This document shows positions 28,343 to 34,071 of a stretch of DNA of 64,000 bases, in pieces. Within the stretch, counting starts at the first letter, position 1. The number at the start of each line of letters is the position of its first letter. The stretch is from Acetobacter sicerae (GTDB taxonomy: Bacteria > Pseudomonadota > Alphaproteobacteria > Acetobacterales > Acetobacteraceae), in the NCBI RefSeq assembly GCF_011516765.1, contig NZ_JAAABN010000003.1, positions 186,001-250,000 of the forward strand, read 5' to 3'. The notes below the pieces were generated by a model that was not told the DNA's origin, did no database searches, and saw only the letters and a program-made list of their open reading frames with translations. Both the position numbers and the translations under genes were made by a program.

Positions 28343-28810
28343 ATGACAGCCGATGATCGCGTAAGGCGATTTCACGGCGGATGTGTCGCGCGGCGCGGAC
28401 AGGGCGTGCTGATCTTCGGCGCGTCGGGGGCGGGCAAGTCCGATCTGCTGCTGCGCCTGCTGGCTCGCGGCTATGATCTGGTGGCTGATGACCGGATCGA
28501 GATGGAGGACGGCCTTGTCAGGGCGCCGGCGGCGTTGCGAGGCCTTGTCGAGGTCCGTGGGTGGGGGATCGTGCGCCGCGCCTTCGTGCCGGAGGTCGTC
28601 CCCCATCTGGCGGTCAGGCTGATCCGGCCGGGAGAGGCGTTCTCCCGGCTGCCAGAGGAAGGGCTGACTGACGGGGAAACCGGGCTGCCGGTTCTTACGC
28701 TGGACGGTATGATGGCTTCAGCGCCGGAGCGGATTGATGTGGCGCTGGACTGTCTGGAGGGGCGAGCCTTTCTCCTGCCGCAGAGCGCCATGCTGGTCAG
28801 TGATAACTGA
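28343..28810 (+). CDS. hprK: HPr kinase/phosphorylase (short, kinase domain only)
   Basis: A 155-residue bifunctional HPr serine kinase/phosphorylase of the short alphaproteobacterial type, lacking the N-terminal domain of Firmicutes HprK. The P-loop is GASGAGKS (26-33). DLVADDRIEM is the catalytic/metal region and LRGLVEVRGWGIVRRAFV is the HprK signature. It would phosphorylate the HPr at 30.7 kb on Ser47, which is conserved there. It is the first gene of hprK-rapZ-EIIA-HPr-EI. No strong Shine-Dalgarno sequence precedes the ATG. Confidence 0.9.
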   Translation: MTADDRVRRFHGGCVARRGQGVLIFGASGAGKSDLLLRLLARGYDLVADDRIEMEDGLVRAPAALRGLVEVRGWGIVRRAFVPEVVPHLAVRLIRPGEAFSRLPEEGLTDGETGLPVLTLDGMMASAPERIDVALDCLEGRAFLLPQSAMLVSDN

Positions 28811-29019: not shown

Positions 29020-30102
29020 ATGGTGACGTCTCAGACTGCCGATGAGGTTCCTCTACGTCAGATCCTGCTGGTCACGGGTCTGTCGGGGGCAGGAAAATCC
29101 TCGATTCTCCGGATTCTGGAGGATCTTGGGCATGAAGTGATCGATAATCCGCCTCTTGGCATGCTGGATGAGATCGTGGCGCGGGGAAACCGTCCGATTG
29201 CGATCGGTGTGGATTCGCGGACCAGGGATTTTGACACGTCGACCGTGCTGGAAGCCTTGGCGCGTCTGCGGATGAACCCGCATCTTCGGGCAGAACTGAT
29301 CTATGCGGCGGCTGATGAAGCCACGCTCCTGCGTCGCTACACGGCGACCCGTCGCCGCCATCCTCTTGCGCCGCATGGCAGCGTGAAGGAAGGGATCGAC
29401 TCGGAGAGGGATCTGACCGGAAAGCTTCGGGCCGGCGCCGATCTGGTCATTGATACGTCCGACCTTTCGGCTCCGGAACTGCGTCGGTTGATCGAAACAC
29501 GCTATGGCACATGGCACAGCGGCCCGGATGAGGGACTGACGGTTGTGCTGATGTCATTCGCCTTTCCGGCCGGCCTGCCTCGGGAAGCGGATATGGTGTT
29601 CGACGCACGTTTTCTGAGAAATCCGCATTATGATCCCGTGCTGGCTCCCCAGACGGGCCTTGACCGACCGGTGGCGGCCTATGTCGAGGCTGATCCGGAC
29701 TATAAGCCGTTTCTGAACCAGATTCTCGGGATGCTGCGTCTGGTCATTCCGCGCTTCGTGCAGGAAGGCAAGAAATACGCGACAATCGCCGTCGGCTGCT
29801 CGGGCGGGCGTCACCGCTCCGTCACGCTGGTGGAAGCGCTGGGCCGGAAGCTGGCGGACATCTCCGACAGTCCGGGCGGGGAAGGGCCGGTGGCTGTGGT
29901 TCACCGGGAGCTTGCGCGGCTCGGGATCACGGGTTCGGATTCCGCGGCCTGGCGGTGGGCCAGAAAACCGGCCGATGATAAAGCCGACATCCAGACGGAT
30001 CTGGCGGAACGGCTGGTGGATGTCACCGTTGTGGACAACAGTAACGTGAATACGGACGACAGAACGTCGGCGTCACATTCCATGGCGCGGGGAAACGCAT
30101 GA
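29020..30102 (+). CDS. rapZ: RNase adapter RapZ / YvcJ-family nucleotide-binding protein
   Basis: A 360-residue protein of the RapZ family. It has the N-terminal P-loop GLSGAGKSS (20-28), DNPPLGMLDEI, VDSRTRDF, and the C-terminal domain with RFLRNPHYDPVLAPQTGLD, and AVGCSGGRHRSVTLVEALGRKL. In enterobacteria RapZ senses glucosamine-6-phosphate and guides RNase E. Usual length is about 285-300; here roughly 60 extra C-terminal residues (from GITGSDSAAWRWARKPADD on) are of unknown role. It overlaps the EIIA gene by four bases (ATGA). Confidence 0.88.
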   Translation: MVTSQTADEVPLRQILLVTGLSGAGKSSILRILEDLGHEVIDNPPLGMLDEIVARGNRPIAIGVDSRTRDFDTSTVLEALARLRMNPHLRAELIYAAADEATLLRRYTATRRRHPLAPHGSVKEGIDSERDLTGKLRAGADLVIDTSDLSAPELRRLIETRYGTWHSGPDEGLTVVLMSFAFPAGLPREADMVFDARFLRNPHYDPVLAPQTGLDRPVAAYVEADPDYKPFLNQILGMLRLVIPRFVQEGKKYATIAVGCSGGRHRSVTLVEALGRKLADISDSPGGEGPVAVVHRELARLGITGSDSAAWRWARKPADDKADIQTDLAERLVDVTVVDNSNVNTDDRTSASHSMARGNA

Positions 30103-30635
30103 TCGGCATTGTACTGGTCACTCAGGGCGCGCTTGGTGTAGCCTTGAGGGAAACTCTGGAACATGTTGTGGGGCCACAGGAAAGACTGGCGGCCGTCAGC
30201 ATCGGACCGGATGATGATCTGGTGGCGCGTCGTCTGGAGCTGGAAGCCTGTGTCGCCGGTGTGGATGACGGCGACGGGGTGATGCTGGTGACCGACATGT
30301 TCGGCAGTACGCCCTCCAACCTCGCCGTCGCGATGATGGAAGCCGGACGGATCGAAGTGCTGGGCGGGGCCAATCTCCCGATGCTGGTCAAGCTGGCCCA
30401 GATGCGCGATCTGCATACGCTGGAAGAGTGCGCGACAGCGGCTGAACGGGCCGCTCATAAATATATCAGCCGCGCTTCCCACCTTCCCCTGCAATGCCTG
30501 GACGGAGCGCGTCGCTGTTCCGAGGGAGCCGCGGGCGATCAGGTCCATATCTTTCCGTCGCTCTCTGACAGACCCTGCCCCGAACCGCTGCCGTCTGTGA
30601 GTCTGGTCTCTGAACGGAAGGTCGCTGTCGGCTGA
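30099..30635 (+). CDS. PTS EIIA-Man-family protein with His-to-Gln active-site change
   Basis: A 178-residue protein whose first 133 residues are a clear EIIA of the mannose family (LVTDMFGSTPSNLAVAMMEAGRIEVLGGANLPMLVKLAQMR). The N-terminal beta strand reads MIGIVLVTQGALG, whereas the family has a T-H-G phosphorylation site there; codon 9 is CAG, so the phosphate-accepting histidine is replaced by glutamine. A 45-residue tail follows HKYISRASHLP, with two cysteines and prolines, absent from typical EIIA. Neighbours HPr and EI keep their active sites. It may be an unphosphorylatable, purely regulatory version. The stop overlaps the next possible start (TGATG). Confidence 0.88.
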   Translation: MIGIVLVTQGALGVALRETLEHVVGPQERLAAVSIGPDDDLVARRLELEACVAGVDDGDGVMLVTDMFGSTPSNLAVAMMEAGRIEVLGGANLPMLVKLAQMRDLHTLEECATAAERAAHKYISRASHLPLQCLDGARRCSEGAAGDQVHIFPSLSDRPCPEPLPSVSLVSERKVAVG

Positions 30636-30649
30636 TGGAGACTTCTGAA

Positions 30650-30943
30650 ATGACGCTGACCCGGGCGGTCACGATCGTGAACGCCAAGGGGTTGCATGCC
30701 CGCGCTTCGGCGAAGTTTGTTGCCGAAGCCGAGAAATGGAAGGCCGAAGTGACAGTCACTTACGGCAGTGAAGTGGTGTCTGCCTGTTCCATCATGGGCC
30801 TCATGCTGCTGGGGGCCGGTGTTGGCGCGACCATCACCCTGTCGGCGACAGGCGTGCAGGCGAAGGAAGCGCTTGAGGCTCTGGGCGCTCTTGTCGGCAG
30901 CGGGTTTGGGGAAGATACTGAAGCAGCCGCTGAGGCGGGTTAG
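30650..30943 (+). CDS. ptsH: Phosphocarrier protein HPr
   Basis: A 97-residue HPr. NAKGLHARASAKFV carries the phosphorylatable His16 and CSIMGLMLLGAG carries Ser47, the HprK target, so both control arms are intact. The ATG at 30650 is nine bases after GGAG and places His near the usual position 15; an in-frame ATG at 30635 that overlaps the EIIA stop would add five residues and is possible. HPr should receive phosphate from the EI encoded 113 bases downstream. Confidence 0.93.
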   Translation: MTLTRAVTIVNAKGLHARASAKFVAEAEKWKAEVTVTYGSEVVSACSIMGLMLLGAGVGATITLSATGVQAKEALEALGALVGSGFGEDTEAAAEAG

Positions 30944-31056: not shown

Positions 31057-32898
31057 ATGAACGCTCAGCGCAGTTCCGGTCGCGGAGAAGACCTCGCCAG
31101 AAGTGGAATGGATGAGCCGGGCAGCGAACATCTTCTGCATGGAGAACCCATCGGTGCAGGCTTCGCGATCGGTCCGGCGTTTGTTGTCGGAGAGGACCCT
31201 TCGCTGGAACCGGAGGTCCGGGTCAGCCGTCTGACACGGGAGCAGGAACACGCCCGGTTCAGTGAGGCGGTTGAGCGTTCCATTGGCCAGCTGAAAAAAC
31301 TTCAGAATCGCATCGCCCGACTTCCGGAAGAAACGCAGGTCGAGATCGGGCCGATGCTGGAGGTCTACCAGCGTATGCTGGGGCCTTCCCGTCTGCAGAA
31401 CAGCGTTGTCAGTCGGCTGGATGACGGCATGACCGCCGAAGCCGCTGTGTATGAGGCGACGGCTGAGCTGGCGGATCTGATGCTGGCGTCCAGAGACGAG
31501 AGGCAACTTGTCGGAGAGGATGCGGCGGCAGCGGAGCGCAGGGCTGGCGAGTTTCGTGAGATCGGTCGCCGGGTGATCCGCAACCTCATGCGGGAATCCT
31601 TTCTCTCCCTGTCCAATATGCCGAATGGCGCAATTCTGGTGGCGCATACGCTGCGTCCGGCCGACGCGGCGCTGATCGATCCGGCCCGTGTTGCGGCGGT
31701 CGTCACCGAGGATGGCGGCTCGACAGGACATACGGCCATCATGTTGCGGGCTCTTGGCGTGCCTGCCGTGCTTGCGGTCGAGGGACTGCTCGATCACGTG
31801 ACGGATGGGGCCACGCTGGTCGTGGACGGTTACTCAGGCAGCATCACGGTCGGTCCATCGTCCCGCACCACGCGGCAGGCGCGCAGACAGGTCGCGGCCT
31901 ATGCGCAGGAGCGGCAGGAACTCGGGCGGATGCGGCGGCTGTCGTCGCGCATGGCCAGCGGCGAGAAGATCAGCCTGCAGGCCAATCTGGAACTTCCGGC
32001 CGAGCTGCCTCTGATCGCGCAGTCGGGCGCCGCCGGGATCGGCTTGTTGCGGACGGAATTTCTGTTCATCAACGCCGAGACGCTTCCTGACGAGGCGACC
32101 CAGTACGACATTTACGCCGCCATCGTCTCCACCATGGGATCTGACCCCACGACCATTCGTGTGTTGGACTGGGGCGGAGAAAAACAGGGTGAGGCGCTTA
32201 TTCGCGCCGGGATTGTCGGGCGTGACTCCATCAATCCGGCTCTGGGTGTGCGGGGCATCCGGCTTCTTCTGGAGCATCCCGATCTGCTGGAGACGCAGTT
32301 TGCGGCCATCCTGCGTGCTGCGGCGAAGGGGCCGGTGCGGGTGCTGCTGCCGATGGTCACCGTCGCTTCGGAAATTGTCGCGGCCCGTGAGATTTACGAA
32401 CGGGTTGCGCGTCGTCTGAAGCGCAAGGGCATTGAAACCGGTGAGAGCCTGCCACCGCTGGGAGTGATGGTCGAAACCCCGGCAGCCGCTCTGACGGCGG
32501 GGCATCTGGCGCAATACGCTGATTTTCTGGCAATCGGGTCAAACGACCTGACCATGTACACCCTTGCGGCGGACCGGGCTTCATCCGAAGTGCTGGCGCT
32601 CTATAATCCGCTGCATCCGGCGGTTCTGAGGATGATCGGCGAAGTTCTTTCCGCCGCCTTCCTTGAGCGATGCCCCGTGTCGGTCTGTGGAGAAATCGCC
32701 GGAAATCCCCGGTTGATCCCTCTTCTGATCGGGCTTGGGTGTCGGTCCTTCTCCATGTCGGCTTCCATGGTGCCGCGTGTGAAGCAGATTGTGCGCAATA
32801 TCAGCTATAATGACTGTCGTCTGCTTGCGCGGCGCGTTCTGGCCGAAACGGATATCGGAGAAATCGGACGTCTTCTGGATGGTTTTCAGCACGGCTGA
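31057..32898 (+). CDS. ptsI: Phosphoenolpyruvate-protein phosphotransferase (PTS enzyme I)
   Basis: A 613-residue cytosolic enzyme that moves phosphate from PEP to HPr. The swivelling-domain histidine is H225 in TEDGGSTGHTAIMLRALGVPAVL (G in place of the usual S before H). The PEP-binding barrel shows GIGLLRTEFLFI, NPALGVRGIRLLL, PPLGVMVETPAAAL, DFLAIGSNDLTMYTLAADR and the catalytic cysteine in VCGEIAGNP. It is about 40 residues longer than E. coli EI, chiefly at the N-terminus. No EIIB/EIIC gene is nearby, so the phosphorelay is likely regulatory. Confidence 0.95.
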   Translation: MNAQRSSGRGEDLARSGMDEPGSEHLLHGEPIGAGFAIGPAFVVGEDPSLEPEVRVSRLTREQEHARFSEAVERSIGQLKKLQNRIARLPEETQVEIGPMLEVYQRMLGPSRLQNSVVSRLDDGMTAEAAVYEATAELADLMLASRDERQLVGEDAAAAERRAGEFREIGRRVIRNLMRESFLSLSNMPNGAILVAHTLRPADAALIDPARVAAVVTEDGGSTGHTAIMLRALGVPAVLAVEGLLDHVTDGATLVVDGYSGSITVGPSSRTTRQARRQVAAYAQERQELGRMRRLSSRMASGEKISLQANLELPAELPLIAQSGAAGIGLLRTEFLFINAETLPDEATQYDIYAAIVSTMGSDPTTIRVLDWGGEKQGEALIRAGIVGRDSINPALGVRGIRLLLEHPDLLETQFAAILRAAAKGPVRVLLPMVTVASEIVAAREIYERVARRLKRKGIETGESLPPLGVMVETPAAALTAGHLAQYADFLAIGSNDLTMYTLAADRASSEVLALYNPLHPAVLRMIGEVLSAAFLERCPVSVCGEIAGNPRLIPLLIGLGCRSFSMSASMVPRVKQIVRNISYNDCRLLARRVLAETDIGEIGRLLDGFQHG

Positions 32899-32925: not shown

Positions 32926-34071
32926 TCAGCCGGTGCGCCAGGAGACGGAGGATGCCGACAGCCATCGACGAAAGGCGAGGACGCTCGCAAGCGGCGGACT
33001 CAGCGCGGCGTAAAAGGGCAGCACATCCGCCTCTGTCGTGAGGCGCGTGTGGCTGCTTCGGGCGACCTCATCAACGCCGGGCAGGCTCGCGGTCAGATGA
33101 GCCGCATGCCGCCAGAGCGCAGCACTTGCCGGAGGTGTGAGCATGGGGAGCACCAGTGCGGCTTCAATGGACGCCGCGTGAGCCGCAGCCTGATAGGCAG
33201 GGAAAAGCGGGTGATCCGGCGCATGCCCCCGGAGGCTGGTGAACCGGCCCGCAAAGTCGGGAAGGCTTCCGCCAGCCTCTGCCGTCAGGGAAAACAGCGG
33301 CACAAACCCCTTCGTTTTCAGGGCGTCGAGCAGTTCCGGCGTAGCGCTGCCGGGAGAGAGCTGCGCTACATCCACTTCGCCCCTTTGCAACGCTTCAATG
33401 GAGGTGTCCCGTGTCGCCAGCCCGCTGACAGGGATGGCGCGCATCGAGAGGATGGCCATGGCCAGAAGCGTCGGCAGCTCTGCCCCGGTAGGGGTTGTGA
33501 CCGCGACGCGCACGGGTCTGTTCTGGAGGAGCGTCCGCAGGGAGCGGCGGAAATCGACATGTCCCACGACCAGCGGAGAGCCGGTTACAAGCGCGACCGG
33601 CAGCCAGCGCTGGTAATCGAAATGCACACGGGAATCGCCGGCCAGCGCGGCGAGGATGGCTGTGCCGGGAACGAGGAGGGCATTTTCACCGGATGCCTGC
33701 GCATCGAAAAGATTGGCTCCTGTGACGCCATCCTGACCCGCCACGTTACGCAGATTCAACGGGCCGTCGGTCGGCAGCGTTGTTTCAAGCGACGGGGCAA
33801 GAACGGGAGCCCAGCGGGCCGGACCGGTGCCCGGGCTGCCTGCGACGATCAGATCCGGCGTGCCGATTGTCGGAGCCGGGATTGCGGTTGAGGCAGCGTG
33901 AAGCAGGCTGTCGGTTTCGGAGCGGTGGGCGAAGGCGCGTCCTGCCAGAAAAGAGCCTGCGCCAGAACCTGCCGTGAGGCCGAGCGCCGCCTTCAGGAGG
34001 GTCCGCCGGTTATAGCGCCGCGGAAGACCTCGTGAAAAACGGGTATCGGATGGCAGGTCTTTTTCTGACAA
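32926..34071 (-). CDS. Tat-exported tripartite tricarboxylate (Bug/TctC-like) binding protein
   Basis: A 381-residue periplasmic protein with a twin-arginine signal (RRYNRRTLLKAALGLTAGSG... cleaved near RAFAH). The mature part has the two-lobed shape of TctC/Bug receptors: PDLIVAGSPGTGPARWAPVLAPSLETTL, NLRNVAGQDGVTGANLFDAQASGENALLVPG, RWLPVALVTGSPLVVGH, RPVRVAVTTPTGAELPTLLAM. No permease genes adjoin it, as is common for orphan Bug proteins. The start is TTG with AAGGAG 11 bases upstream. Family assignment is moderate; the ligand is unknown. Confidence 0.6.
   Translation of the reverse strand: MSEKDLPSDTRFSRGLPRRYNRRTLLKAALGLTAGSGAGSFLAGRAFAHRSETDSLLHAASTAIPAPTIGTPDLIVAGSPGTGPARWAPVLAPSLETTLPTDGPLNLRNVAGQDGVTGANLFDAQASGENALLVPGTAILAALAGDSRVHFDYQRWLPVALVTGSPLVVGHVDFRRSLRTLLQNRPVRVAVTTPTGAELPTLLAMAILSMRAIPVSGLATRDTSIEALQRGEVDVAQLSPGSATPELLDALKTKGFVPLFSLTAEAGGSLPDFAGRFTSLRGHAPDHPLFPAYQAAAHAASIEAALVLPMLTPPASAALWRHAAHLTASLPGVDEVARSSHTRLTTEADVLPFYAALSPPLASVLAFRRWLSASSVSWRTG

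Follow-up and report, generated by a model that had tools for sequence, protein, structure and literature searches.

The window analysed here (a stretch of 64,000 nucleotides from the genome of Acetobacter sicerae) contains, between positions 28343 and 32898 of the forward strand, five co-directional genes: hprK, rapZ, a gene for an EIIA-Man protein, and the genes for HPr and Enzyme I (EI). The adjoining of hprK, EIIA-Man and HPr (or NPr) genes on a single strand is a trait of ManX/PtsM modules of the PTS, and is found here. An earlier description of this DNA (the ‘sequence-only reading’) had called the system permease-less, which holds for the operon in the window. The genes, and the features within them that bear on what follows, are:

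28343-28810, + strand: hprK, short HPr kinase, 155 amino acids (PF07475 at residues 9-77; P-loop present)
29020-30102, + strand: rapZ, 360 amino acids (PF22740 and PF03668)
30099-30635, + strand: EIIA-Man gene (ManX/PtsM-like) with Gln9, 178 amino acids (Pfam profile, AlphaFold2 and Foldseek)
30123-30125, + strand: codon 9, CAG, encoding Gln where EIIA-Man proteins have the His that accepts phosphate (sequence and alignments)
30294-30296, + strand: codon 66, Asp, counterpart of the EIIA-Man active-site Asp (kept in all 14 genomes of the genus that carry the gene)
30489-30632, + strand: C-terminal extension of EIIA-Man, residues 131-178 (pLDDT below 50 at residues 144-178; dN/dS 0.37)
30635-30943, + strand: HPr, 102 amino acids, with His21 (30695-30697) and Ser52 (30788-30790) both kept (Pfam)
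31057-32898, + strand: Enzyme I, 613 amino acids, with His225 and Cys544 kept (Pfam and NCBIfam scans)

The open reading frame at 30099-30635 matches the Pfam EIIA-man profile (PF03610) over residues 3-114 (1.5e-21; 77.2 bits against a cut-off of 21.4), and falls below the cut-offs of two NCBIfam profiles for sugar transport (51.5 versus 98.35 for TIGR00824, and 69.7 versus 130 for the AgaF profile NF040761). An AlphaFold2 model, built upon an alignment of 32 rows, displays block means of pLDDT between 90 and 97 at residues 1-120, and the closest Foldseek matches of this predicted structure are the EIIA-Man structures 3lfh, 3ipr, 2jzn and 1pdo (TM-scores by target of 0.85-0.91). By profile and fold, the protein is an EIIA-Man homologue.

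In the alignment with the solved structure of 3lfh, column 9 is occupied by His in that protein and by Gln in the window (ITHG versus vtqg). The His at this column is the phosphate acceptor of EIIA-Man proteins, and Asp66, with the loop around it, is the counterpart of their active-site Asp. The defining trait of the family, a phosphate-accepting His at position 9 or 10, is absent, as is the use of His9 as a terminal acceptor that marks the ManX/PtsM modules; judged by that acceptor, the window protein is not a phosphate-carrying EIIA. The assignment of the column to the acceptor agrees with a study of the corresponding Brucella protein (PMC2937029), and the sequence-only reading was correct in placing a Gln codon (CAG) at the acceptor site.

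Residue 9 across the Alphaproteobacteria

An EIIA-Man gene was found in 14 of the 49 genomes of the source genus, each of which yielded one EIIA-Man match, and all 14 genes encode Gln at position 9 (11 with CAG and three with CAA). His occupies that position in all 26 Acetobacteraceae loci that were read outside this genus, and in all 80 named loci drawn from across the class (the best 80 of at least 584 confirmed matches). Taken together, the 126 proteins (118 of them different) comprise 108 with His9 and 18 with Gln9, with no other residue found at the site; outside of the source genus, the 112 alphaproteobacterial proteins divide into the 108 with His9 and four with Gln9, all from one other family. 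These counts speak against the idea, raised earlier as a ground for doubt, that relatives normally do without His at this site, and the alignment of Acetobacteraceae homologues that had been proposed as a check separates the genus from its relatives at residue 9. Sequencing error or an isolated mutation at codon 9 is ruled out by the 14 separate genomes and the two Gln codons, and a pseudogene by the open frames in those genomes and a dN/dS of about 0.125.

Among the matches listed, the closest named relative by EIIA sequence is from Gluconacetobacter (67% identity), and two rows from a genus coded g42 show no difference from Gluconacetobacter tumulicola in the part compared. The EIIA-Man gene is carried by 343 of 397 genomes of the family. 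A search of those 397 genomes for a Gln9 pattern gave at least four matches, all within the source genus, and the same search of 385 genomes of the class gave four, two of which lie in a second family (f29), the others being an unrelated open reading frame (genome G765) and the window’s own genome; the pattern requires an ATG start, Ile2, Gly3 and Gly10, and these counts are lower bounds. Plasmid records, of which 59 had a match, stand outside the residue-9 counts.

In family f29, an EIIA-Man gene is present in six of ten genomes, with Gln9 in four (from two genera) and His9 in two. Both of the pattern-matched f29 genes are EIIA-Man genes within the order hprK, rapZ, EIIA, HPr, an order found at all six f29 loci and at 21 of the 26 His9 loci of the Acetobacteraceae (of the exceptions, four gave no rapZ in the interval from hprK to EIIA, and one gave no hprK in its short flank). 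Well-supported branches in a tree of the 126 proteins force at least two changes at residue 9, and a single Gln9 clade is rejected by the AU test (p=0.0066, run on 48 of the 126 rows, column 9 being excluded, and with the Gln9 group defined after the first tree had been seen). In the 48-row tree the four f29 Gln9 rows group together with weak support (77/65), and three f29 rows combine a very long branch with an unusual composition. On the tree, Gln9 arose at least twice. Since Gln lies one base from His, the same choice in both lineages is only mildly telling; for the f29 proteins of genus g130, in which several other conserved positions are also changed (for example 39, 45, 65 and 122), it is less clear that only the acceptor was altered. 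EIIA-Ntr is present in all six f29 genomes that carry EIIA-Man, so the relay in that family still has another acceptor.

Within the source genus, the rest of the EIIA-Man domain is largely conserved, much as had been claimed: its modelled fold matches that of EIIA-Man, and Asp66, Thr71, Asn74 and Asn92 are kept in all 14 proteins. These four residues, along with Pro94, belong to a set of 39 positions at which 97% or more of the 108 His9 proteins agree, and 32 of these positions are uniform and unchanged in the 14 genus proteins. Of the remaining seven, three carry one and the same substitution in every genus protein (H9Q, L64V and G119A), and four vary in one to three of the 14. In the genus, then, the acceptor is nearly all that the phosphate pocket has lost. 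The median dN/dS of the domain, calculated by the NG86 method from pairs unsaturated at silent sites (many pairs being saturated), comes to 0.125 among the Gln9 proteins, where 60 of 91 pairs could be used, as against 0.121 among the 13 His9 loci closest to them (76 of 78), which indicates purifying selection upon the Gln9 domain as strong as that in its His9 sister group. The replacement of Leu64, which adjoins the active-site Asp, is found in all 14 genus proteins and in three of the four Gln9 proteins from f29, versus two of the 108 His9 proteins; a claim that this change is linked to Gln9 was dropped, as two events are too few.

A relay without its usual acceptor

The proteins that stand upstream of EIIA in the relay look intact. 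Identity among the EI proteins of the 14 Gln9 genomes falls as low as 61%, yet His225 and Cys544 of EI, as well as His21 and Ser52 of HPr, are found in every one of them, and the P-loop of HprK (GxxGxGKS, the only residues of that protein to be checked) was read in all 14 sequences. The sequence-only reading had stated that HPr keeps its His and Ser (those two residues in present numbering), EI its His and Cys, and HprK its P-loop, and each of these statements extends from the window to the clade.

A profile search for PF00359 (the EIIA-Ntr/Fru/Mtl family) gave no match in the 14 Gln9 genomes, and no His-bearing acceptor of either the PF00359 or the EIIA-Man kind was found in them. The profile is matched in one of the 49 genomes of the genus (G041, within a PF00359-HPr-EI fusion), and in eight of the 26 His9 genomes of the Acetobacteraceae (in seven of the eight within an open frame of 854-952 amino acids), with no match in the remaining 18; many acetic-acid bacteria, then, have no PF00359 protein beside EIIA-Man. 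As a side observation, PF00359 lies inside open frames of 852-952 amino acids in L226 (genome G412), G089, G219, G319, G341, G361, G401 and G041, and the G041 frame, with its HPr-like and EI-like parts, is a separate fused PTS protein. For the 14 genomes, the suggestion that the relay ends without its usual acceptor is supported by the lack of a PF00359 match, the single EIIA-Man (with Gln9) in each genome, and the intact EI and HPr.

On the strength of the missing acceptor, upstream enzymes that look intact, the lack of PF00359 and the single EIIA-Man, a phosphorylation-blind regulator, one of the two roles first put forward, is the best reading of the window protein. We give a probability of roughly 60% to its being a functional EIIA-Man regulator of the ManX/PtsM type that cannot be phosphorylated at the normal site and is held in a state like that of unphosphorylated ManX, with its output uncoupled from PEP, EI and HPr. 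Gln9 would hold the protein in that form, such that its output would stop following the phosphate state of the PEP-EI-HPr relay, and the relay in the genus would probably end on HPr (as His~P and/or Ser-P). By analogy with the systems described below, we infer that the Gln9 protein is unphosphorylated and acts as the unphosphorylated form; the switch looks as if it were fixed in a single state. With no PF00359 or second EIIA-Man acceptor in the genus, the kept catalytic residues of EI and HPr are left unexplained by this reading alone.

The nearest described systems are the ManX/PtsM modules of Brucella melitensis and Rhizobium leguminosarum, which share with the window protein its family, its fold, the neighbourhood of hprK, EIIA and HPr (or NPr), and the frame of the active site apart from His9. 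The ManX/PtsM proteins have His9; the Brucella protein receives phosphate from NPr in vitro, with His9 as the proposed site (PMC2937029), whereas the window protein has Gln9. The window system also differs in that its EI is without a GAF domain (none was found in a Pfam scan), and in that the operon-bearing members of the genus gave no PF00359 match; in R. leguminosarum the relay ends at both ManX and PtsN, according to a review (PMC13104625). A study of that organism describes ManX as active when unphosphorylated, and reports that the H9A variant complements a manX mutant for motility (PMC7617929). That engineered protein is altered at the same position, with the same expected loss of phosphorylation, but it is a laboratory Ala mutant, whereas the window form is a natural Gln that is fixed over a clade; the difference between Gln and Ala counts against a transfer of the H9A result, which here is made by analogy. 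Crh of the Bacillaceae offers a second likeness, as a relative of HPr in which Gln naturally replaces the phosphate-accepting His15 and which is still a working regulator (PMC9631020). Crh, however, adopts the HPr fold, occurs alongside an ordinary HPr and is regulated via Ser46, whereas the window protein has the EIIA-Man fold and is the sole EIIA-Man found in its genome. On this reading, the window protein would work like Crh and ManX H9A while being neither. Searches of the open-access literature (conducted mostly by titles and the beginnings of abstracts) brought up no account of an EIIA that naturally lacks its His, and no study of an hprK-rapZ-EIIA-HPr-EI operon in Acetobacter or Gluconobacter was found in that literature.

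Alternative explanations and wider meaning

The main rival, which we regard as unlikely though serious, is a relay in the course of dismantling: the process would have begun with the acceptor His, and the Gln9 clade would stand half-way, its other components being retained for the present through the operon or through minor functions. The distribution of PTS genes in the genus favours such a process. EIIA-Man and HprK have no match in 35 of the 49 genomes; HprK is found in the same 14 as EIIA-Man, HPr in those 14 and in the G041 fusion, and EI-length matches in the same 14 (further matches come from the G041 fusion and from shorter stretches of related PEP enzymes). The rapZ gene is present in 47 of the 49, having been kept in 33 of the 35 that are without EIIA-Man, and at two PTS-less loci (L102 and L113) hprK and the EIIA-HPr-EI genes are gone from around it, leaving a histidine-kinase-like gene and a RidA-like gene (both named by reading) together with rapZ. 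In a RapZ tree of 52 rows, made by a quick method from 14 Gln9 genomes, 16 of the 33 RapZ-bearing PTS-less genomes and 22 of the 26 His9 family loci, the PTS-less rows form one clade beside the Gln9 clade, each group being a single clade. Such a tree needs one loss only, so the co-occurrence of EIIA, HPr, EI and HprK does not amount to 14 independent tests. The origin of Gln9 may either precede or follow the split from the PTS-less clade. The dN/dS of HPr is higher in the Gln9 clade (0.189, from 26 of 91 usable pairs) than in the His9 group (0.107, from 75 of 78), which fits some relaxation. Dismantling is harder to reconcile with a dN/dS for the EIIA domain that equals that of the His9 group, with EI and HPr catalytic residues that are intact in all 14 genomes in spite of the divergence of EI, and with the second origin of Gln9 in f29, where the operon is kept.

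An improbable alternative holds that Gln9 is neutral, phosphorylation having become immaterial after the loss of its targets, with EIIA serving as a scaffold or as a binding partner of HPr. The acceptor in the genus did change with little other change to the active site, no PF00359 acceptor is left in the Gln9 genomes of the genus, and the change from His requires a single base; against it, free drift might be expected to give other residues at position 9, and only His and Gln are found there in 126 rows. That the protein still accepts phosphate on another residue, such as the invariant His22 or the active-site Asp66, is less credible again, for although both of these are invariant in all 18 Gln9 proteins, and a His has appeared at 122 in all but one of the four Gln9 proteins from f29, neither His22 nor Asp66 varies among the 108 His9 proteins either (such that their conservation needs another reason), none of the 11 differences fixed in the genus (found in at least 13 of its 14 proteins and in at most 15% of the family His9 loci) introduces a His, Cys or Asp, and Tyr122 is unchanged in all 14 genus proteins.

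The reading of the protein as a phosphorylation-blind regulator can be carried further, and here only tentatively: two lineages may independently have made EIIA-Man into a dedicated, always-on regulator that is blind to phosphorylation, with the relay of the acetic-acid bacteria then ending on HPr, as a PTS without a phosphate-accepting EIIA. The HPr end-point might be read directly, through HprK, or via an unproductive binding of HPr~P by the Gln9 protein. Little is known of the role and acting state of EIIA-Man in the regulatory PTS of Alphaproteobacteria, and a natural and repeated loss of its acceptor suggests a job for EIIA-Man that needs no phosphate. The Gln9 strains would provide native cases in which the output of EIIA is uncoupled from that of HPr, and their EIIA-Man would be the EIIA counterpart of Crh.

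The C-terminal tail and other observations at the locus

The sequence-only reading also drew attention to an unusual C-terminal extension of the EIIA-Man protein. The extension exists, but it is not special to the Gln9 proteins: the 26 His9 relatives in the family are 150-178 amino acids long, versus approximately 133 in most other Alphaproteobacteria, and most of the tail is predicted to be disordered. On both counts the tail was set aside as a novelty.

A co-evolution of HPr with Gln9 was likewise considered and dropped. A Ser four residues beyond the active His of HPr is found in all 14 Gln9 genomes, versus Ala in all 26 His9 loci of the family, but the same Ser is also present at 26 of the 80 class-wide His9 loci, which argues against that interpretation; the residue before the regulatory Ser is changed in the Gln9 clade too, but is variable across the class. 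At HPr residues 17, 43, 51 (the one that precedes the regulatory Ser) and 63, Arg is common in the family His9 clade and mostly replaced in the Gln9 clade.

Elsewhere in the window, an open reading frame of 381 amino acids at 32929-34071 on the reverse strand has an N-terminus that reads as twin-arginine-like, with no Pfam match at 1e-3, and the RidA-like gene of the window is a match to PF01042. The stop codon of the EIIA-Man gene and the start of the HPr gene share one base, and the motif GGAAGG lies in the last EIIA codons, just 5’ of that overlapping start (within 30610-30640). It is found in the codons for the final residues (R-K-V-A-V-G) in three of the seven genus genomes whose sequence was compared. 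Given its position shortly before the HPr start, the motif is a candidate ribosome-binding site for HPr, and part of the end of the EIIA tail may owe its sequence to that site.
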